Shown: positions 39,524 through 49,205 of the stretch, one piece after another | How the letters are laid out: every line of letters starts with the position of its first letter | How positions within the stretch are numbered: position 1 is the stretch's first letter | Assembly (NCBI RefSeq): GCF_010725485.1 | Contig: NZ_AP022598.1 | Span: 5,456,001 to 5,520,000, forward strand | DNA length: 64,000 nucleotides | Direction of reading: 5' to 3' | Source of the DNA: Mycolicibacterium parafortuitum | Lineage (GTDB): Bacteria > Actinomycetota > Actinomycetes > Mycobacteriales > Mycobacteriaceae | Translations under genes and position numbers: made by a program | Notes under the pieces: model-generated | What the model was told of the DNA's origin: nothing | What the model saw: only the letters and a program-made list of their open reading frames with translations | Databases searched by the model: none

Positions 39524-40860
39524 CGTGCCACCACCGCCGCCCGCTGCGCCCGCGCCATGCCTGCGGGGATCTCCTTCTTACGGATGTCGTGTTCGTAGAC
39601 GAAGTAGTCCACCTGCTGGGTGTGGCGTGGACGGTCGGTGCAGTGCCCGGCGTGCAGCTGCTGGTCGGCGTCGATGACGCGTTCCATCTCGTCGACCGGG
39701 GGAAGCGCGTAGCGCCCGATCGCGTAGGCGGCCAGCAGCCGGGCCTGGCATTCCACGAACGGGAACAGCGTCGGCACGGCCTGGGCGAACCCCATGAAGA
39801 CCAGGTTCTCGATGCCCGGCAGGAACATCCGCTTGTATAGCCGGATCGCGTTGTCCGGGGCGCTGATGAACTCTGGATCGAAGAACGGGAAGGTGATGTT
39901 GTATCCGGTGGCGTAGACGATCACGTCGAACTCGTCGTGGGTCCCGTCGACGAAATGCACCGTATGACCGTCCAGCCGAGCGACATTCGGCTTGGGGGCC
40001 ACGTCCCCGGATCCCAGCCGCAGGGGCAGTTCCACCGACTGCGTGGGATGGGCCTCGAACAGTTTGTGGTCAGCAGGCGGGAGCCCGTACATCGTCGGGT
40101 CGGTGCCGAGCATCGGGGCGATCAGCTGCACCGCTTTACGCTGCCACTTCAGCGGCAGGTACGGCGAGGTCTGCCAGAACGTGTCCCCCGGCCGGCCCGC
40201 GATGTACTTCGGCACGATCCACGCCGACGACCGGGTCGACAGCGTGACCTGGTTGTCCAGCGCCTTCGACGACAGCTCGACCGTGATGTCGGCGGCGCTG
40301 TTACCGATGCCGACCACCAGGATGCGCTTGCCGGTCAGGTTCAGCGGCGTGCTCGGATCGATGTAGGCATGCGAGTGGATGGATTCGCCGTCGAAGGACC
40401 CTGGGAAGTCAGGCAGGCGGGGATCCCAGTGATGCCCGTTGGCGACGACCAGCATGTCGAAATGCCGGTCTGCGCCCGACTGGTCCCGAATGATCCAGCG
40501 GCCGTCGCCGTTCCGCTCGGCGCGCACCACCCCGTTCTCGAACTCGATGTGGTCGAGCAGCCCGAACGTGCTGGCGTAGTCGTCCAGGTAGGCCTTGACC
40601 TGTGAGTGGTGCGGGAACGACGGATAGTGCTCCGGCATCGGGAAGTCCTTGAAGGACAACCGGTCCTTGGACGTGTCGATGTGCAGTGACCGGTAGGCGC
40701 TGCTGTGCCCGTTGGGATTGCCGAACGCCCAGTTCCCGCCGATCCGGTCCGAGGTCTCGAACGTGGTGTAGTCGACCCCGTAGTCCTTGAGCATCTTGCC
40801 CGCCGTAAGCCCGCTGATACCGGCGCCGATCACCGCCACATACGGCTGCGCATGCCTCAC
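39520..40860 (-). CDS. Flavin-containing monooxygenase (FMO/BVMO type)
   Basis: A 446-aa FAD/NADPH monooxygenase: FAD loop AVIGAGISGLTAG near the N-terminus, NADPH loop VVGIGNSAADI, a FxGxxxHxxxY-like FPGSFDGESIHSHAY between them and VIVYATGYN near the C-terminus. It inserts oxygen into a ketone or heteroatom. The preferred GTG start at 40860 has GAGGA 6 nt upstream; the in-frame GTG at 40866 touches that site. Promoter region contains TGAC-GTAT-GTCA. Paired with the downstream hydrolase by a 4-nt overlap. Confidence 0.9.
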   Translation of the reverse strand: MRHAQPYVAVIGAGISGLTAGKMLKDYGVDYTTFETSDRIGGNWAFGNPNGHSSAYRSLHIDTSKDRLSFKDFPMPEHYPSFPHHSQVKAYLDDYASTFGLLDHIEFENGVVRAERNGDGRWIIRDQSGADRHFDMLVVANGHHWDPRLPDFPGSFDGESIHSHAYIDPSTPLNLTGKRILVVGIGNSAADITVELSSKALDNQVTLSTRSSAWIVPKYIAGRPGDTFWQTSPYLPLKWQRKAVQLIAPMLGTDPTMYGLPPADHKLFEAHPTQSVELPLRLGSGDVAPKPNVARLDGHTVHFVDGTHDEFDVIVYATGYNITFPFFDPEFISAPDNAIRLYKRMFLPGIENLVFMGFAQAVPTLFPFVECQARLLAAYAIGRYALPPVDEMERVIDADQQLHAGHCTDRPRHTQQVDYFVYEHDIRKKEIPAGMARAQRAAVVAR

Positions 40861-40894
40861 CGTCACTCCTCACGCCGTGGGACGTTCACGCTTT

Positions 40895-40906
40895 TGACGT
40901 ATGTCA
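40895..40906. promoter_or_regulatory. Small palindrome upstream of the FMO gene
   Basis: TGACGTATGTCA (4-4-4) about 35 bp upstream of the FMO start on the minus strand. Could be an operator or simply overlap the promoter. Confidence 0.35.
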
Positions 40907-40956
40907 GAAATCGCTGACGCCTGTTCTACCACGGCACGCCCGTGCGCCGCGGCGAC

Positions 40957-41409
40957 TCAGCCGATGAAACGGACGATCGACTCGGCGACGGCCGCGGGCT
41001 TCTCGGAGCCCTCGACCTCGACGGTGGTGGTCACCGTCGCCTGGACCGCGTTGTCGAGCTCCTTGACCTCGGAGATCTCGGCGCGCGCCCGCAGCTTGGC
41101 CCCGACACGCACCGGGGTGATGAACCGAACCTTGTTGTAGCCGTAGTTGATCGCCATGGCGATGTTGCCGACCGTGTACAGCTGATGGGTGAAGTGCGGC
41201 AGCAGCGATAGGGTCAGCAGGCCGTGGGCGATGGTCCCGCCGAACGGTCCGTCGGCGGCCCGGGCCGGATCCACGTGGATCCACTGGTGATCGTCGGTCG
41301 CGTCGGCGAACAGGTTGACCCGGTCCTGGGTGATCTCCATCCACTCCGTGGGGCCCAGCTGGGTGCCCTGAGCCGCAACGAGTTCAGCCAGATTTTCGAA
41401 CTTCTTCAC
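40957..41409 (-). CDS. MaoC-like (R)-enoyl-CoA hydratase
   Basis: Single hotdog-fold hydratase of 150 aa. The hydratase-2 motif is FADATDDHQWIHVDPARA, with Asp40 and His45 as catalytic pair, followed by GPFGGTIAHGLLTLSL. It hydrates trans-2-enoyl-CoA to the (R)-3-hydroxy form. The GTG start has AGGAGG 9 nt upstream. It lies about 96 nt upstream of the FMO gene on the same strand and may be co-transcribed. Confidence 0.93.
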   Translation of the reverse strand: MKKFENLAELVAAQGTQLGPTEWMEITQDRVNLFADATDDHQWIHVDPARAADGPFGGTIAHGLLTLSLLPHFTHQLYTVGNIAMAINYGYNKVRFITPVRVGAKLRARAEISEVKELDNAVQATVTTTVEVEGSEKPAAVAESIVRFIG

Positions 41410-42236
41410 GCCAGAATCCTCCTCGGGTGATCACTGCTTGGCGCCGGACGGCCCTGCGGGATCGACACCGTCGTCACCGACACTGCAGTCGACGAGAGTC
41501 CGGCGCCACCACACTGTGCCATACCGCGATCGCCGCCATACCACCATCGCTGCGCCGGCGCGAACCTCGGGGCAGCCCCGGCCCGAATCACGGGACCCCG
41601 GCGGCGGCGTGCCGCAGCAGCAATTGCATGTGCAATTCACCGAGCCAATTCGAATCAGGCGATAGGGCCGACGGGGGTGCCGCCCGGATGAATAGCGACG
41701 CGTATCCGGCGCCGACGCACCGCGCCGCGCGCCGCTCAGTGGGCGCGCCGTCCCCGCGCCAGGCCCCCCGAACTCATCACGACACTGCGATTTCAGCAAA
41801 TTCGGAACCCGATTTCCGGGATACGCCCGCCCGCCCCCACGGGGGCCGCGAACGGTGCGGCAATTTGGGGTTACCAGCCGGTAACCGCCTCCAAAGCTTC
41901 GTTTGTGGTCCTTTCCCGCCGTAGTCATTGCCGAAAGTCGGTTCGCGTCCGGCAAATACGCTGACGGGCCTAGCGATCTCCGATGTTCGCTGATGATCCA
42001 GCAAAAGTAATTTGACCTGCAAAAACATCTCAGCGGCTGATAGCCCGTTATTGTCCTCATTCGCCAGCCGTTCTCGCGAATGGATTGTTGTTCTCGAGTT
42101 AACGATCGCGAGTTCAAAATCGCCGATCCCGATCTCAACGCGGCGAGATACTCATTCTGCGTGCAGATAACGAACACGCATCCCCCAACGAAGTACAGCT
42201 AAATACCCACGCTGTCACCTGATGAATGGATGAAAT
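41410..42236. other. 827-bp lower-GC intergenic region
   Basis: No convincing gene. The 248-aa minus-strand open frame at 41431-42177 is Arg/Gly/Cys-rich with no family features and is judged spurious. From about 41620 to 42236 the base composition is visibly more AT-rich than flanking genes. It contains AATTGCA-TG-TGCAATT (41622-41637) and several CGATC repeats near 42104-42134. It likely includes the promoter of the 42237-46979 genes and may be a long leader or old insertion. Confidence 0.6.
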
Positions 42237-42989
42237 ATGACCACGCCTGAGTTCCGCCCCTCCGCACTCGAGTACGCCCCGCTGACCGCGAGCCCGAGCT
42301 ACTGGGACCCGGCAACGGAGTGCACGGTCGTCTATGCGACACCGTCCGGCGAGCGCGAACTGTGGCGCGACTACGTGCGCGGCGCGATCAAGAACTACGA
42401 GAAGCACGGTGTCGCCGCCGCCCTGGATTTCGACGCCCTGCGCACGGGCGAGGACACGGTGCTGTTCGCCGCGTGTGTCAACGATGCCGGGGATGTCGTC
42501 GGTGGGCTGCGTGCGCGCGGACCGTACCTGTCCGCCGACGACTGCCACGCAGTCCGGGAGTGGGACGGTCAGCCGGGCCAGGCCGCGGTGCACAAGATGG
42601 TCGCCGACCGCATACCCTTCGGTGTGGCCGAAATGAAGACGGCGTGGGTGACCGACGATCCCGACGAGAGCCGACGTCTGACGACGGCGATCGCGCGTAC
42701 CCCGTTGCACGCGATGACGCTCCTCGACATCCAGTTCATCGTCGCGACCGCGGCGTCGTATGTGCTCAAGCGCTGGCTGTCGTCGGGCGGCGTGCTGGCC
42801 ACGAAGATCCCGGCCACGCCCTACCCCGACGAGCGTTACGACACCCGGCTCGCGTGGTGGGATCGTCTCACCTTCGCCAACCACGCTGATCCCAGCCAGG
42901 TTTCGTCGTACTTCGCCGAGCAGCGCCAGATCGCCGAGATGCTCCCCGAGCTGACCGCTCCCGTCGCAGGAGACGCACCCGCTCGATGA
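42237..42989 (+). CDS. GNAT-like protein, Rv1356c-type (possible N-acyl amino acid synthase fold)
   Basis: Conserved protein of 250 aa with no firm function. The layout resembles GNAT/autoinducer-synthase proteins of the FeeM type: strand-loop VLFAACVNDAGDVVGGLRARGPY, then GVAEMKTAWVTD (strand with conserved Glu), a helix LLDIQFIVATAASYVLKRW and a late PYPDERYDTRLAWWDR. Such proteins join an acyl group to an amino acid or amine. That assignment is an inference from pattern only. It overlaps the ThiF-nitroreductase gene by 4 nt (ATGA), so the two act together. Order and orientation match Rv1356c-Rv1355c-Rv1354c from memory. Confidence 0.65.
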   Translation: MTTPEFRPSALEYAPLTASPSYWDPATECTVVYATPSGERELWRDYVRGAIKNYEKHGVAAALDFDALRTGEDTVLFAACVNDAGDVVGGLRARGPYLSADDCHAVREWDGQPGQAAVHKMVADRIPFGVAEMKTAWVTDDPDESRRLTTAIARTPLHAMTLLDIQFIVATAASYVLKRWLSSGGVLATKIPATPYPDERYDTRLAWWDRLTFANHADPSQVSSYFAEQRQIAEMLPELTAPVAGDAPAR

Positions 42990-45124
42990 CCGACAGCGAC
43001 GACCGGCCCGCCGACCATCGGGCCGAGGTCTTGGACCCTGCCGTCCCCGCCCACCAGCACAGGCTGGCGCAGCTTCGGGAAGACCCCTCGATCGAGTGCG
43101 CGCCGGAACCGCCCGACGGGGCCGGCGCGCACCGGTGGGTGCACTATCCGTGGCGGCGCGCCGTGGTCGATGTGCCTGCGCCGGAGGAGTTCCGGCGGGT
43201 CAGGTTGGACCGCAACAGGAATCTGATGACCGGGGACGAACTTCGCCGGCTCGCCGGTCTACGGGTCGGTGTCGTCGGGTTGAGCGTCGGTCACGCCATC
43301 GCCCACACGCTCGCGGCCGAAGGAGTCTGCGGTGTGCTGCGATTGGCCGACTACGACGTCCTGGAGTTGTCCAATCTCAACCGCGTGCCGGCCTCGGTAC
43401 TCGACCTCGGGCTGAACAAAGCGGTGGCATGTGCGCGGCGGATCGCCGAACTGGATCCGTATCTTCCGGTCGAGGTCGTCACCGCCGGTGTCACCGCCGA
43501 CAACGTGGAGGCGTTCCTCGACGGGCTCGACGTCGTCGTCGAAGAATGCGACTCGCTGGACGTCAAGATGTTGGTACGCCAGGCGGCGCGCGCGCGTGGG
43601 CTTCCGGTACTGATGGCCACCAGCAGTGGCGGACTGCTCGACGTCGAACGGTTCGACCAGCAGCCGGACCGTCCGGTGTTCCACGGCCTGCTCGGCGATG
43701 TCGATGCCGACGAACTCGGCAGGCTCAGCTCCAAAGAAAAAGTGCCGCACGTCATGCGCATCATCGACGCCGCGCTGCTGCGGCCCCGGATGCAGGCATC
43801 GCTGATCGAGGTCGGCGCAACGCTGACGACGTGGCCTCAGTTGTCCTCCGAGGTCGCCATCGGTGCCGCGACCGTCGCCGAGGCCGTGCGCCGGATCGGC
43901 CTCGGTGAGGAGCTCGGATCCGGCCGGGTGCGGGTCGACGTTCCGGCGCTGCTCGACGACGTCGACGATCCGTGGGAAGCGCGCCGCCGACACCCGGATG
44001 ACGAACGGTCCGCGCCGGCCGCCGCCGACGCCGTCACCGTCGATTCCGGGCGCGGTGACCTCGCCACCATCGCCGCGGCTGCGGCGCGGGCACCGTCGGG
44101 CGGCAACACCCAACCGTGGAGCATCGACGTCGGCGACTCCGCGCTGACGATCCGGGTCGATCCGAGCCTGTCCTCCGCGATGGACGTCGGGTACCGCGGC
44201 AGCGCGGTCGCCGTCGGTGCGGCCACGTTCAACGCCAGGGTCGCCGCCGCGGCCCGCGGTCTGAGCGCGCAGGTCGAGTTCAGCGAGGCGCCCCCGTCAT
44301 CGTCACCGTCGTCGTCACTGTCATCGTCGCCACTGACTGCCGTCGTGACCACCGCCCCCGGTGGCGACCCGAACCTCGCCGCCCGGTACGAGGCCATGCT
44401 GGCCCGCGAGACCAACCGGCACCGGGGCACCGCGGAGCAGATTCCCACCGAGGCCGTCGCCGAGTGGGAGCGCATCGCCGCCGCCGAGGGCGCCCGGCTG
44501 CGGCTGGTGACCGACGCTGGCCGCCTCGACAAGGCCGCGGCGCTGTTCGCCGAGGCCGACCGCATCCGCTACCTGACCCCGATGCTGCACTCGCAGATGA
44601 TGGGCGAGTTGCGCCGGCCCGGCGACCCCGATCCGGACACCGGGATCGATGTGCGCAGCCTCGAACTCGACGCGGCCGATCTCGCGTCGCTCGATCTGCT
44701 CCGCAGTGGCGCGGTGATGGCCCACCTCGCGGAGTGGGATGCCGGATCAGCGCTCGGCGAACCCACCCGCGCCGCGGTCAGCGAGTCCTCCGCGCTGGCC
44801 GTGGTGTCGGTGCGCGGGGACACGCTCGTCGACTACGCCCGCGGCGGCGCCGCGGTCGAGGCGATCTGGATCAGTGCGCAAGAACACGGTCAGGCCGTCC
44901 AACCCATCTCACCTGCGTTCCTGTACGCGCGGACCGCCGGTGAACTGCACGCCCTGTCCGCGGCGTTCTCGAAGCGGCTCGCCGACCTGCAATACTCTTT
45001 CCACACGTTGATCGACCTCGAGTCGGACGAGTCGCTGATCCTGATCCTCAGGATCTGTCGCGCGCCCCGGCCCTCGGTGTCGAGCCGACGACGGCAGATA
45101 CCCGGTCGTTCGACACCGACCTAG
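42986..45124 (+). CDS. moeY: ThiF/E1-like adenylyltransferase fused to nitroreductase (Rv1355c/MoeY-like)
   Basis: Two-domain protein of 712 aa. Residues about 85-330 are an E1/ThiF/MoeB fold: GVVGLSVGHAIAHTLA nucleotide loop (95 on), LADYDVLELSNLNRV with the Asp and Arg that bind ATP/Mg, and K145. No obvious transfer Cys motif follows. Residues about 360-690 are a nitroreductase-like flavin domain starting with ARAPSGGNTQPW (FMN phosphate contact). Between strands of that domain is a Ser/Pro run (44289-44337). The M. tuberculosis name MoeY implies molybdopterin synthesis, but nothing else here supports that. Adenylation of a carboxylate followed by flavin redox is plausible. It overlaps the previous gene by 4 nt. 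Confidence 0.85.
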   Translation: MTDSDDRPADHRAEVLDPAVPAHQHRLAQLREDPSIECAPEPPDGAGAHRWVHYPWRRAVVDVPAPEEFRRVRLDRNRNLMTGDELRRLAGLRVGVVGLSVGHAIAHTLAAEGVCGVLRLADYDVLELSNLNRVPASVLDLGLNKAVACARRIAELDPYLPVEVVTAGVTADNVEAFLDGLDVVVEECDSLDVKMLVRQAARARGLPVLMATSSGGLLDVERFDQQPDRPVFHGLLGDVDADELGRLSSKEKVPHVMRIIDAALLRPRMQASLIEVGATLTTWPQLSSEVAIGAATVAEAVRRIGLGEELGSGRVRVDVPALLDDVDDPWEARRRHPDDERSAPAAADAVTVDSGRGDLATIAAAAARAPSGGNTQPWSIDVGDSALTIRVDPSLSSAMDVGYRGSAVAVGAATFNARVAAAARGLSAQVEFSEAPPSSSPSSSLSSSPLTAVVTTAPGGDPNLAARYEAMLARETNRHRGTAEQIPTEAVAEWERIAAAEGARLRLVTDAGRLDKAAALFAEADRIRYLTPMLHSQMMGELRRPGDPDPDTGIDVRSLELDAADLASLDLLRSGAVMAHLAEWDAGSALGEPTRAAVSESSALAVVSVRGDTLVDYARGGAAVEAIWISAQEHGQAVQPISPAFLYARTAGELHALSAAFSKRLADLQYSFHTLIDLESDESLILILRICRAPRPSVSSRRRQIPGRSTPT

Positions 45125-45140
45125 GTTGGATCGGAGGTCA

Positions 45141-46979
45141 GTGTCCGAGAGTCTGGACATGCTCGTCACGTCAGTGGCGGCACAACTCATGGGCGCCGGT
45201 GCCGCTTCCTGGGTGGAGGCCAGCCGAGGTGTCCTCGCCGAATTGGTGGCCCACTTCGACGTCGATGTCAGCTTCCTGCGGCGTAACGATCATTCGATCC
45301 GGGCATCGATCCTGGTCGCCGAATGGCCGGTTCGGCCCGAGACCCCCGATCCAGACCCGCTCGCGGTGGTCTACTTCGCCGACGCCGATCCGGTGTTCGC
45401 CCTGGCCGAACACCAGAAGGAACCGCTGGTGTTCCGGCCGGAACCGGCCACCGACGAGTATCAGAAGACCATCGAGGAGAGCCGCCAGGTTCCCCAGGTC
45501 TCGATGGCATGCGTTCCGCTGTTGTCCGAGGACGACACCACCGGGGTGCTCGGCTTCATCAAGTTCGGCGACCGCGACTGGACCGAAGAGGAACTCAACG
45601 CGCTCCAGGCGATCGCCTCGCTGTTCGCCCAGGTGCAGGCGCGGGTGCAGGCCGAGGAGCAACTCCGGTACCTCGCCGAGCACGACGACCTGACCGGCCT
45701 GTGCAACCGGCGTGCGCTGCTCGCCCACCTCGACGAGCGTCTCGCCGAGGACCAGCCCGGTCCGGTGGCCGCGCTGTTCTTCGACCTGGACCGCCTCAAG
45801 GCCATCAACGACTATCTCGGGCACACCGCGGGCGACCGGTTCATCCGGGTGCTGGCCGAGCGGCTCCGCGAGAGCACCGAGACCCCGAACATGATCGCCC
45901 GCCTCGGCGGCGACGAGTTCGTCGTCGTGCCCAGCCAACCGATGGACGTGGCCGCCGCCGAAGCGCTCGCCCACCAGCTGCAGTCGAAGTTGCGCGAACG
46001 CGTGTCGATCGATGGCGAGACCCTGTCCAGAACCGTCAGCATCGGTGTGGCACAAGGCATTCCGGGGCGAGACACCACGTCGGATCTACTCCGGCGCGCC
46101 GACCAGGCCGTGCTGGCCGCGAAGGGTTCCGGCGGAAACCAGATCACCGTGTTCACCGAGGACATGTCTCTGCAGAACGAGTTCGACAACGACATCGAAC
46201 TGCACCTGCAGGGCGTGATCGAGAACGGTGCGCTGCTTCTTCACTACCTGCCCGAGATCGACATGCGCACCGGCGACATCCTCGCCGCCGAGGCACTCGT
46301 GCGCTGGCAGCACCCGACCCGCGGTCTGCTGTCCCCCGATGCGTTCATCGGGGTGGCCGAGTCGATCAACTTCGCCGGCGAGCTGGGCCGCTGGGTGATG
46401 CGGACGGCGTGCGCGGAGTTCGCCGCATGGCGGGCCCGTGGCATCGGCAGGGACGCCATCATGCGGATCAACGTCTCCCCGGTGCAACTGGTCACCGACG
46501 GCTTCGTCGAGACGGTGGCCGGCATCATCGACGAGTTCGGTCTCGACCACGGTTCGGTCTGTCTTGAGATCACCGAGAGCATGGTGGTGCAGGACATCGA
46601 GACGACCCGGGTGACCCTGGACGGGCTGAAGAAGACCGGTGTGCTGGTTGCCATCGACGATTTCGGAACCGGTTACAGCGCGTTGTCGCACCTGAAGTCG
46701 CTACCGGTGGACACGCTGAAGATCGACAAGAGTTTCGTGCGTGAACTCGGTTCGGACCCCGGGGATCTCGCGATCGTGCGGGCGATCATCGCCCTCGCCG
46801 AGGCGTTCGGCCTCGAGCTGGTCGCCGAGGGTGTCGAGACCGACGCCGCGGCGCTGACCCTGCTTCGGCACGGCTGCCATCGGGCACAGGGCTTCCTGCT
46901 CTCCCGCCCGATCCCCGGCGAGGCGATGGAAACCCTGTTCTCTCAAGGGCGCATCCCCGTCAGCTTCTCGAAGTCCTGA
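45141..46979 (+). CDS. dcpA: GAF-GGDEF-EAL cyclic di-GMP enzyme (DcpA/Rv1354c-like)
   Basis: A 612-aa signalling protein with an N-terminal GAF-like sensor (about 1-165), GGDEF domain (RLGGDEFVVV intact; LTGLCNRRAL) and EAL domain (AAEALVRWQHP intact; INVSPVQL, LEITESMV, IDDFGTGYSAL, DTLKIDKSFV, AEGVET). Both active sites look complete, so it can make and break c-di-GMP, as reported for the M. smegmatis homologue DcpA. No membrane segment. TTG 45126 is an alternative start; GTG 45141 follows GGAGG but with short spacing. It begins 16 nt after the ThiF-nitroreductase stop, implying co-transcription. Confidence 0.92.
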   Translation: MSESLDMLVTSVAAQLMGAGAASWVEASRGVLAELVAHFDVDVSFLRRNDHSIRASILVAEWPVRPETPDPDPLAVVYFADADPVFALAEHQKEPLVFRPEPATDEYQKTIEESRQVPQVSMACVPLLSEDDTTGVLGFIKFGDRDWTEEELNALQAIASLFAQVQARVQAEEQLRYLAEHDDLTGLCNRRALLAHLDERLAEDQPGPVAALFFDLDRLKAINDYLGHTAGDRFIRVLAERLRESTETPNMIARLGGDEFVVVPSQPMDVAAAEALAHQLQSKLRERVSIDGETLSRTVSIGVAQGIPGRDTTSDLLRRADQAVLAAKGSGGNQITVFTEDMSLQNEFDNDIELHLQGVIENGALLLHYLPEIDMRTGDILAAEALVRWQHPTRGLLSPDAFIGVAESINFAGELGRWVMRTACAEFAAWRARGIGRDAIMRINVSPVQLVTDGFVETVAGIIDEFGLDHGSVCLEITESMVVQDIETTRVTLDGLKKTGVLVAIDDFGTGYSALSHLKSLPVDTLKIDKSFVRELGSDPGDLAIVRAIIALAEAFGLELVAEGVETDAAALTLLRHGCHRAQGFLLSRPIPGEAMETLFSQGRIPVSFSKS

Positions 46980-46982
46980 CGG

Positions 46983-47768
46983 CTAGCCGGTCAGCAGCTC
47001 GACGCGACCGAACCTGCTGGCCTCTTTGCCGACCAGCGCGACCCGAAGCGGATCCTGTCCGGTCAGCCCGTCGCCGGCCGGTCCGCGGGCGACGTCCTCG
47101 TGGCGGCAGATCAGCACTCCGTGCCGCGCACGGATCGACAGAGGGCCGTCCGCGGTGGCGAAGACCGCGCCGGTGACCACATGGTCCTCGAAGACCAACC
47201 GCTCGAACCGCGTCACCGGCTGCGGCCACAGGTCCCGGTCCTCGGCCTGCGCGGTGAGCCATCGCCGGACCGAACCGATCGGGTCGGCGACGTCGGGGAT
47301 CATCTCCCCGATCTCGGTCACCTTGACCAGTTCACCGTCGCCGCGGTCCATGGTCGCCGACGTCCAGTCGGTGACCTGCGTGTAGAGGTAGCCCGTGGGT
47401 GACGGGATGCAGCGCGCCGCCCAGTCACGCAGTCGCGCACCGTCGAATGTCGGAATCGGCCTGCGGCGCACCGGAACAGGTTCGCCGGCGGCGCGCACCG
47501 GCAGGTCGGCGTCGTGCTGACCGAGCGCCGAGAGATCGATGTCGGAGGTCAACGAACGGAGGTAGTCACCGGTCGCCTCGTCACCGGTCGCCTCGTCGCC
47601 GTCGGACATGACGTCGATCGTGAACCAGCCGTGCCGCGCCGGCGTCGGGGCACTGGCGAGGAAGACCTCGCCGTCCTGGTCGGCCGCCGAGATCGCCGTC
47701 GCCAGCCCCGCCAGCCCGGTGTCGGTGCACACGACGTCGACCTCGTCGTCCCATTCGGGATCGTTCAC
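46983..47768 (-). CDS. Degenerate FAD-binding-like protein of unknown function
   Basis: A 261-aa protein. The N-terminus DDEVDVVCTDTGLAGLATAIS resembles a Rossmann FAD-binding segment of ketosteroid dehydrogenase-type flavoproteins, but the GxGxxG is broken (CTDTGLAG) and no substrate domain is recognised. RHGVLICRHEDV near the C-terminus fits the late FAD strand. It may be a non-catalytic relic or partner. A perfect 15-bp tandem duplication encodes GDEAT-GDEAT. Convergent with the c-di-GMP gene (3 nt apart) and divergent from a FadE operon. Confidence 0.65.
   Translation of the reverse strand: MNDPEWDDEVDVVCTDTGLAGLATAISAADQDGEVFLASAPTPARHGWFTIDVMSDGDEATGDEATGDYLRSLTSDIDLSALGQHDADLPVRAAGEPVPVRRRPIPTFDGARLRDWAARCIPSPTGYLYTQVTDWTSATMDRGDGELVKVTEIGEMIPDVADPIGSVRRWLTAQAEDRDLWPQPVTRFERLVFEDHVVTGAVFATADGPLSIRARHGVLICRHEDVARGPAGDGLTGQDPLRVALVGKEASRFGRVELLTG
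47565..47594. repeat. Perfect 15-bp tandem duplication
   Basis: GTCACCGGTCGCCTC occurs twice in tandem (47565, 47580) within the gene at 46983, coding for a doubled GDEAT pentapeptide on the minus strand. Confidence 0.9.
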
Positions 47769-47921
47769 GCTCTATTGCCTCGCTGTAGATGCCGCAAAGA
47801 GGAGCCCGACCTGGACTTTCCCGGCCGGTCAAGGCTATGGCATCGCCGATACCTGGCCAAAATCGCCGGCGGTAGTTCACAGGTGCGACCGTTTCCGGCA
47901 GGAACGTGCGGTAGCTTCCAC

Positions 47922-47941
47922 TTAACTAACTAGGTTTACTG
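47922..47941. promoter_or_regulatory. AT-rich semi-palindrome upstream of FadE pair
   Basis: TTAACTAACTAGGTTTACTG lies about 35 bp upstream of the FadE ATG at 47973. AAC-taactag-GTT is a partial inverted repeat, and TTTACTGT resembles the TTACTGTA half-sites seen at 2430 and 19297. Likely the core promoter plus a TetR-type operator. Confidence 0.45.
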
Positions 47942-47972
47942 TGTCTGTAACGCGGGCGGAAAGGAGAGATCG

Positions 47973-49205
47973 ATGGATTTGGGCTGGTCTGCGACCGACC
48001 TCGCGTTCCGCGACGAAGTGCGGGGATTCCTCGACGAGAAACTGACCCCGGAACTCCGGCAGGCCGGGCGGTTGATGACGAGCGTCTACGCCGACCACGA
48101 CGCCAGCATGGAGTGGCAGCGCATCCTCCACGAGCGCGGCTGGGCGGCTCCCGCGTGGCCGGTGGCCTACGGTGGCTGCGATTGGGGCCTGACCCAGCAC
48201 TACATCTTCAGCCGGGAATCGACGTTGGCCGGAGCGCCGTCGCTGTCGCCGATGGGGATCAGAATGGTCGCCCACGCGATCATCAAGTTCGGCACCGACG
48301 AGCAGAAGGACTTCTTCCTGCCCCGGATCCTGACCGGCGAGGTGTTCTTCTGCCAGGGTTACTCGGAGCCGGAAGCGGGCTCGGATCTGGCGGCGCTGTC
48401 GATGGCCGCCCGGGACGACGGCGATCACCTGGTCTGCACCGGCAGCAAGATCTGGACCACCCATGCGCGGGAGGCCAACTGGATGTTCGCGCTGGTGCGC
48501 ACCACCCGTGACGAGAAGAAGCAGCGGGGCATCACGTTCCTCCTCATCGACATGTCCACCCCGGGCATCGAGATCCGCCCGCTGGTCATGACGTCCGGCG
48601 AAGAGGTGCAGAACCAGGTCTTCTTCGACGAGGTGCGGGTGCCCAAGAAGAACGTCATCGGTCGGATCGACGACGGCTGGACCGTGGCGAAGTATCTCCT
48701 CGAGTTCGAGCGCGGTGGCGGAGCCGTCGCCGCGGGCCTGCAGGTGATGGCCGAGAACATCGCCGAGGTGGCCGCCGGACAGCCGGGCCCCGACGGCGGC
48801 CGGTTGCTCGACGATCCCGCGTTCGCGCGCAAGCTGGCCGACGCCCGCATCCGCACCGAGGTGTTGGAGATCCTGGAGTACCAGGTGCTCGCCGTGGTCG
48901 CCGAGGGCGGCAACCCCGGGGCGAAATCCTCCATGCTCAAGGTGCTCGGCACCGAATTGAGCCAGACCATAACCGAACTCGCGATGGAAGCGGCGGGACC
49001 GCGTGGGCGCGTGTACCAACCCCACGCGACGTTCCCCGGCGGTCCGATCGCCGAGTTCGAGCCGCCGCACGACGGCTACGTCAGCGGTGAGCCCTGGCAG
49101 GCGGTCGCACCGCTGCGGTACTTCAACGATCGGGCCGGCTCGATCTACGCCGGCAGCAACGAAATTCAGCGCAACATCCTCGCCAAGGCAGCATTGGGGC
49201 TCTAG
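47973..49205 (+). CDS. Acyl-CoA dehydrogenase, large-type subunit (FadE)
   Basis: A 410-aa FadE with CQGYSEPEAGSDLAALSMAA, HLVCTGSKIWTTHA and a C-terminal RAGSIYAGSNEIQRNIL. The position of the classical Glu (YEGT) is Ala (YAGS), as in heteromeric FadE enzymes. Its stop codon abuts the ATG of a second FadE, giving another alpha2beta2 pair. AGGAGA sits 6 nt before the ATG. Promoter region at 47769-47972 is shared with the gene at 46983. Confidence 0.93.
   Translation: MDLGWSATDLAFRDEVRGFLDEKLTPELRQAGRLMTSVYADHDASMEWQRILHERGWAAPAWPVAYGGCDWGLTQHYIFSRESTLAGAPSLSPMGIRMVAHAIIKFGTDEQKDFFLPRILTGEVFFCQGYSEPEAGSDLAALSMAARDDGDHLVCTGSKIWTTHAREANWMFALVRTTRDEKKQRGITFLLIDMSTPGIEIRPLVMTSGEEVQNQVFFDEVRVPKKNVIGRIDDGWTVAKYLLEFERGGGAVAAGLQVMAENIAEVAAGQPGPDGGRLLDDPAFARKLADARIRTEVLEILEYQVLAVVAEGGNPGAKSSMLKVLGTELSQTITELAMEAAGPRGRVYQPHATFPGGPIAEFEPPHDGYVSGEPWQAVAPLRYFNDRAGSIYAGSNEIQRNILAKAALGL

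Follow-up and report, generated by a model that had tools for sequence, protein, structure and literature searches.

Why should a gene for a cyclic di-GMP (c-di-GMP) enzyme stand beside two genes that look like a small biosynthetic pathway? The question is raised by three co-directional genes on the plus strand of a 64,000-nucleotide stretch of contig NZ_AP022598.1 (positions 5,456,001 to 5,520,000, part of a 6.04-Mb single-contig genome; hereafter the window, in whose coordinates all positions are given). Open reading frame analysis placed them at 42237-42989, 42986-45124 and 45141-46979. We assign the locus, with high confidence, as a trzAS operon with a linked c-di-GMP gene, most likely making an N-acyl tryptazolone, because gene 2 matches the NCBIfam family NF005901 and retains the candidate active-site residues D189, R528 and Q639, gene 1 has the predicted fold of TrzA, the operon layout is the published one, and GGDEF genes are linked to such loci far beyond the window.

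The biosynthetic function of trzAS is already in print. In their December 2025 report, Kleetz et al. name Rv1356c/Rv1355c and their homologues from M. smegmatis and Rhodococcus TrzA and TrzS, and demonstrate the formation of N-acyl tryptazolones from acyl-coenzyme A (CoA) and L-tryptophan (PMC12856293). Rv1356c (TrzA) is the N-acyltransferase for L-tryptophan, and Rv1355c (TrzS) performs an ATP-dependent cyclisation followed by an O2-dependent desaturation, as followed with purified TrzS from M. smegmatis; expression in R. jostii of the three TrzAS pairs (M. tuberculosis, M. smegmatis, R. jostii) gave tryptophan-derived products of differing chain length (PMC12856293). The window shares with these systems, including that of R. 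jostii RHA1, the gene order, the fusion of ThiF to a flavin-dependent oxidase (FDO), the active-site residues and an acyltransferase of the FeeM/acyl-homoserine lactone (AHL) type. An earlier note, made from the letters of the window alone, had described a GNAT/FeeM-like protein, a ThiF-nitroreductase fusion and a c-di-GMP enzyme in the gene order of M. tuberculosis Rv1356c-Rv1354c, and had taken the trio for a small machine that acylates and modifies an amino acid. Homologues that acylate, cyclise and desaturate tryptophan, and a published layout in which Rv1354c adjoins trzAS, bear this out; the note's statement that the product is unknown gives way, the product of the homologues being an N-acyl tryptazolone (PMC12856293).

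Gene 2 (42986-45124, plus strand) encodes a 712-aa ThiF-FDO fusion, 91% identical to its M. parafortuitum counterpart, that matches the 'Rv1355c family protein' model NF005901 over residues 9-708 with 955.8 bits against a cut-off of 476. Pfam recognises the fusion as ThiF (PF00899, E 5.5e-24) and nitroreductase (PF00881, E 2.3e-5). Among solved structures, the nearest in sequence are, for the ThiF half, TcdA together with further enzymes of the ThiF/E1 type and, for the FDO half, the Acg nitroreductase 2ymv (E 1e-7); the Acg family model NF047509 scores 117.5 bits over residues 362-651, under its cut-off of 199. The residues used to test M. smegmatis TrzS, according to the available text, are D217, R540 and Q651, spaced by 323 and 111 (PMC12856293). 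Their counterparts in the window, with equivalence set by this family spacing and not by alignment to the M. smegmatis sequence, are D189 (43550-43552) in the ThiF adenylation/cyclase domain (residues 75-244; 43208-43717) and R528 (44567-44569) and Q639 (44900-44902) in the FDO domain (approximately residues 356-700; 44051-45085). The linker is longer than in the known TrzS proteins, with 339 residues between D189 and R528 as against about 323, and R528 and Q639 are separated by 111. In an alignment of 66 TrzS sequences including the window, the Asp is invariant and the Arg is present in 65, with a D-R spacing of 319-328 in at least 49 and an R-Q spacing of 111 in 39. By these measures the window protein keeps the predicted equivalents of the adenylation Asp and of the Arg and Gln at the flavin mononucleotide (FMN) site.

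Gene 1 (42237-42989, plus strand) encodes the 250-aa TrzA homologue, a putative N-acyl-amino-acid synthase that is 97% identical to its M. parafortuitum counterpart. It has no Pfam or NCBIfam match at E<=1, and its likeness to LuxI-type synthases is one of fold only: the predicted model adopts a GNAT/AHL-synthase fold and, in structure comparison, matches LasI, FeeM and BjaI, so that the structure prediction against FeeM and LuxI folds suggested in the earlier note finds the GNAT fold in place. Membership in the family and the retained residues suggest a pathway in which TrzS, through its ThiF half, would use ATP to activate the carboxylate and close an oxazolone ring, and the FMN half would desaturate that ring with O2, yielding an N-acyl tryptazolone whose acyl chain the sequence leaves unassigned. 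The third enzyme would make and break c-di-GMP, and its conserved linkage suggests that it is functionally coupled to the trz pathway.

This third protein (45141-46979, plus strand) is a predicted bifunctional c-di-GMP synthase/phosphodiesterase, with a GAF domain as candidate ligand-binding sensor (45216-45632; PF01590, E 1.6e-9), a GGDEF domain with intact GGDEF motif (45675-46142; PF00990, E 5.4e-36) and an EAL domain with EAL, DDFGTG and KID motifs (46206-46910; PF00563, E 1.8e-67), all above the Pfam cut-offs. The catalytic residues are present (GGDEF 261-265, E389, N449, E484, D511-D512 and K532, numbered from the TTG at 45126), and no RxxD inhibitory site occurs at the usual place before the GGDEF motif. 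Domain order and catalytic motifs are shared with Rv1354c (MtbDGC) and with MSDGC-1 and DcpA of M. smegmatis, which we take to be one protein; activity is predicted for the window copy. The available text on MSDGC-1 identifies it as the homologue of Rv1354c, which makes and degrades c-di-GMP (PMC2994820). The longest reading frame for gene 3 opens at that TTG, 1 nt after gene 2, and ends at 46979. An alternative GTG at 45141 is immediately preceded by GGAGG and agrees with the N-termini of two M. colombiense homologues, which makes the 16-nt gap the likelier arrangement. Genes 1 and 2 overlap by 4 nt at an ATGA junction, as had also been described earlier, and junctions of 4 and 16 nt make it plausible that all three genes are co-transcribed.

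How general is the association with c-di-GMP? TrzS-type proteins were sought in 151 genomes of the family sample (E<=1e-60) and 81 of the order sample (E<=1e-30) and were found in 64 and 13, respectively, with the family matches falling in 15 of 31 genera and the neighbours recurring alongside. We compared 90 loci, comprising the window, 6 named loci, all 75 other family match rows and the 8 order rows from outside the family, seeking the GAF-GGDEF-EAL gene within 10 kb of ThiF and the other query proteins within 5 kb. A GGDEF domain lies within 10 kb of the TrzS-type ThiF in 82 of the 90 loci and within 5 kb in 80, L064 and L065 making up the difference. In the host genome, by comparison, 5.4% of the sequence lies within 10 kb and 2.8% within 5 kb of one of the 16 GGDEF domains that it encodes, a high number for a mycobacterium; because the loci share ancestry, the comparison gives a contrast and no p-value. 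This recurrence fits the conserved gene order and the tie to c-di-GMP signalling that the earlier note had put forward. Where trzA is present the association is closer still, at 74 of 75 loci with two partial cases included.

Several architectures make up this total. In 46 loci trzA and ThiF-FDO accompany GAF-GGDEF-EAL, as in the window, and in 18 they accompany a second GGDEF type with an N-terminal half that appears hydrophobic by eye; the one representative scanned has no GAF domain. Four further loci combine trzA and an FDO-less ThiF with GAF-GGDEF-EAL and four with the second type, so that these eight (L120-L127) carry trzA, a stand-alone ThiF and a GGDEF gene with no flavin oxidase nearby. 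Whole-genome searches for an FDO in six of the FDO-less genomes gave no match in three and, in the other three, only weak matches of 29-35% identity (E 4.6e-7 to 8.7e-6) on other contigs, and a relocated oxidase was rejected as an explanation. Two loci have a partial GGDEF match beside trzA and ThiF-FDO, namely L074, with an interrupted frame, and L154, with a different GGDEF protein about 2 kb from ThiF; the only trzA-ThiF-FDO locus with no GGDEF domain, L132, is a second copy in its genome. Among loci lacking trzA, five (L148-L152, also without oxidase) pair ThiF with the second GGDEF type, three pair ThiF-FDO with GAF-GGDEF-EAL, and seven have no GGDEF domain. These five led us to give up the view that the GGDEF gene goes with TrzA only; overall, 13 of 18 FDO-less loci retain a GGDEF gene. 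The position of trzA also varies: 46 of 75 loci have it upstream on the same strand, 19 have it upstream but on the other strand and 10 have it downstream, and in 26 it lies on the strand opposite to ThiF. In M. hippocampi, trzA adjoins a GAF-GGDEF-EAL match (80% identical, with one internal TAG) at 2.62 Mb of contig C2, and trzS is elsewhere, at about 0.64 Mb of NZ_BLLB01000002.1, probably the same contig.

Other observations weigh against the assignment or the breadth of the linkage. The FMN-site Gln is present in just 33 of the 66 TrzS sequences and is His in 22, and acyl-chain preference cannot be read from the sequence. The available text of Kleetz et al. reports native tryptazolones from M. 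smegmatis and R. jostii and not from M. tuberculosis (PMC12856293). Eight of the 90 loci lack a GGDEF domain within 10 kb. In favour of the linkage, 45 of the 151 family genomes have both TrzS and a GAF-GGDEF-EAL match (E<=1e-120), with TrzS by itself in 19, GAF-GGDEF-EAL by itself in 6 and neither in 81, for which the Fisher value of 1.4e-16 overstates the evidence, the genomes being related. Among the six, L137-L139 are without most of the GAF domain, L135 is on a 3.7-kb contig, and L133 and L134 are orphan-like. Also against it, 13 of 69 GAF-GGDEF-EAL copies lie outside loci with an intact ThiF or trzA match; these include the copy in L135 and the two copies in L136, which adjoin a trzA remnant. 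The unlinked copies are scattered over 8 label changes in the 69-sequence tree (arbitrarily rooted, and with a program warning of long branches meeting), a pattern that fits repeated loss or copying out of a linked state.

What, then, would the c-di-GMP enzyme contribute? One answer is that the shared operon meets a common stress need, with the GAF domain reading guanosine diphosphate (GDP) or another general cue, and with c-di-GMP, or the cue itself, adjusting tryptazolone production rather than the reverse. We regard this as a serious contender, though somewhat likelier wrong than right. GDP is listed as an inhibitory ligand of the M. smegmatis DcpA GAF domain in the available part of a review (PMC8846402), and the short junctions make joint transcription plausible. 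The linkage is kept, however, where trzA is divergent or separated (the 26 opposite-strand loci among them) and where a second GGDEF architecture is used, so a shared promoter alone does not explain it. Co-divergence of GAF with TrzA, described below, also speaks against this answer, as does the observation of Kleetz et al. that in M. tuberculosis neither antibiotics nor oxidative stress caused induction (PMC12856293).

An alternative answer, which we put forward tentatively and consider on balance unlikely, is that acyl-tryptophan or the tryptazolone is itself the GAF ligand, synthase and receptor being co-encoded in an acyl-signal circuit read out through c-di-GMP. Consistent with it are the AHL-synthase fold of TrzA and the persistence of the linkage with two GGDEF architectures and in 13 of 18 loci without the FDO. 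The available text of Kleetz et al. notes the AHL resemblance and, in one sentence, the c-di-GMP gene neighbours in M. tuberculosis, and places acyl-tryptophan mainly in the culture supernatant (PMC12856293). Genes of two Cass2/GyrI-like, small-molecule-binding families upstream of trzS point the same way.

Co-divergence provides a further indication. We compared pairwise domain distances across the 43 loci, out of 79, that have all domains. GAF distances follow those of TrzA after the catalytic domains are removed (partial r 0.485; ranks 0.389) and after ThiF and FDO are removed as well (0.334; ranks 0.295), whereas in the mirror comparison the catalytic domains follow TrzA little after GAF is removed (0.069 and -0.003; ranks 0.144 and 0.101). 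An initial analysis of 47 loci yielded 0.561 for GAF and 0.104 for the catalytic domains; its permutation value of 0/2000 was not used, as it ignores kinship, and a rate-matched control set, CATfast, added nothing because 410 of its 416 columns are those of the full catalytic set. Dropping any single clade leaves the GAF-TrzA partial r between 0.335 and 0.519, but in the weakest case, 0.335, the catalytic value reaches 0.266, and when each of the 12 clades is represented by a single locus the GAF-TrzA value drops to 0.245. Within the catalytic half, EAL follows TrzA after GGDEF is removed (0.294) and GGDEF hardly does so after EAL (0.042), so such values can arise without ligand sensing. GAF co-varies with FDO (0.465) and ThiF (0.427) too, and the signal therefore does not single out TrzA's product. 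We regard the GAF-TrzA co-divergence as suggestive only.

Further evidence against a product-sensing GAF comes from the GDP ligand cited above, from the existence of unlinked GAF-GGDEF-EAL copies and from the GAF domain itself. The GAF model is of low confidence (predicted local distance difference test score 62.4, from six sequences) and resembles an ordinary GAF domain. We do not claim a LuxR-type, autoinducer-binding identity, because Pfam Autoind_bind is below cut-off (E 0.026) and because in Foldseek a chain of a quorum-sensing anti-activation complex (2q0o) ranks 17th and a LasR chain 27th, both below ordinary GAF domains. The scanned protein of the second GGDEF type would, lacking a GAF domain, need another way to respond. 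If the GAF domain does bind the product, a close parallel would be the Burkholderia system RpfF/RpfR. RpfF is the synthase of the Burkholderia diffusible signal factor (BDSF) and is encoded next to RpfR, which has the domain order PAS-GGDEF-EAL. In that system, according to the available part of a review, the acyl signal acts on the sensor domain of the c-di-GMP enzyme (PMC8846402); it differs from the window in synthase chemistry and in using PAS instead of GAF.

Extending product sensing to the family, we speculate, as a doubtful but specific proposal, that acyl-tryptophan or tryptazolone serves as an AHL-like signal of mycolic-acid bacteria, with the GAF-GGDEF-EAL protein as the receptor that converts it to c-di-GMP. 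The GAF-less GGDEF type may have taken the same place in other lineages, and because some loci keep ThiF and a GGDEF gene without the oxidase, c-di-GMP control, and not the finished tryptazolone, may be the conserved core.

The product itself invites an alternative, that the locus makes an oxazolone derived from a different aromatic amino acid, either tyrosine or phenylalanine, and this we consider improbable. TyzACB of M. tuberculosis and OxzAB of Pseudoalteromonas rubra likewise join an acyltransferase, a ThiF cyclase and a flavin oxidase to form acyl oxazolones; they differ in their tyrosine and phenylalanine products and, for Tyz, in having separate proteins. The same enzyme types are described for both pathways in the available text (PMC10404671), and M. 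tuberculosis TrzA acylated phenylalanine with C4-CoA in vitro (PMC12856293). Yet in the available account none of three TrzAS homologues tested in vivo gave non-tryptophan oxazolones, and TrzS belongs to a ThiF subcluster other than that of the Tyz and Oxz enzymes (PMC12856293). The window gene is of the TrzS (Rv1355c) family, and the host genome has no second TrzA (E<=1e-5) and no second TrzS-type ThiF (E<=1e-60). A molybdopterin role for gene 2, as the label MoeY implies and as membership in the ThiF/MoeB superfamily might suggest, can be set aside almost completely, since MoeB-named models score 32-61.7 bits against cut-offs of 266-633, the protein has a fused FDO domain, a trzA partner and an equivalog match to the Rv1355c family, and the function of its homologues already contradicts the role (PMC12856293); the label is as misleading as the earlier note had suspected.

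The surroundings of the operon differ from those in M. tuberculosis in that no Rv1357c-like EAL gene lies directly beside the trio. Upstream, a MaoC-like gene (PF01575; 40957-41409, minus strand) bounds an 827-bp divergent intergenic region (41410-42236, GC content 0.617) in which the trz promoter probably lies. This region shares 84% identity with its M. parafortuitum counterpart, with the final ~60 bp unchanged. We read it as non-coding because its single long frame, a 248-aa minus-strand candidate at 41431-42177, is broken by indels relative to M. parafortuitum and was rejected as a gene. A scan limited to sigma-70-like promoters found none upstream of trzA, and an Rfam search over 40800-48100 for riboswitches and structured RNAs returned a single sub-threshold match, inside trzS on the opposite strand. 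As described earlier, the approach to gene 1 is low in GC: 41750-42236 (487 nt) has 55.6% against 68.1% for the window, among the lowest 0.16% of windows of that size. This AT-rich outlier could, as an idea only, be a target of an Lsr2-type silencer or a long leader. Downstream, a convergent gene (46983-47768, minus strand) encodes a 261-aa protein with a weak flavin adenine dinucleotide-binding match (PF00890, E 0.0019, below the Pfam cut-off) that resembles a shortened or degenerate flavoprotein.

Other trz loci carry additional features. At L136:6202-10320, a 48-residue trzA remnant precedes a tandem pair of GAF-GGDEF-EAL genes and the examined stretch contains no trzS, which looks like module decay. 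Among the 66 loci with a called TrzS, 8 (L007, L008, L009, L011 and L062-L065, all in Mycobacterium/Mycolicibacterium or the genus of the window) have a member of a cytochrome P450 family 1-4 genes from trzS, for example L008:15903-17273 on the minus strand; the one member scanned matches PF00067 (E 3.1e-63). A tailoring role on tryptazolones is possible. Of the two small Cass2/GyrI-like families, one is encoded in 19 of the 66 loci and the other in 13, in each case on the strand of trzS and 1-3 genes upstream of it, as at L070:5497-6012 (plus) and L073:10445-10900 (minus), with PF14526 matched by the one member scanned per family; they are possible oxazolone binders, carriers or hydrolases.

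The genes of the window are a further instance of a known pathway, and with the linkage the role of this pathway can be tested directly. For M. tuberculosis, the c-di-GMP genes next to trzAS have already been noted in a single published sentence (PMC12856293), and in the open-licence part of PubMed Central we found no paper that goes beyond that remark. New here are how widely the linkage extends, the existence of a second GGDEF type and of variants without the oxidase, the co-divergence of GAF with TrzA, and the neighbouring P450 and Cass2/GyrI-like genes. The unusually persistent pairing with c-di-GMP genes points to a signalling role, and from a remark on neighbours the survey arrives at a specific hypothesis that can be tested and that names a candidate receptor. 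Natural variants without the oxidase, with the other GGDEF type or with a linked P450 can separate which molecule matters. Should the hypothesis prove right, an acyl-amino-acid signal would feed straight into c-di-GMP in mycolic-acid bacteria.

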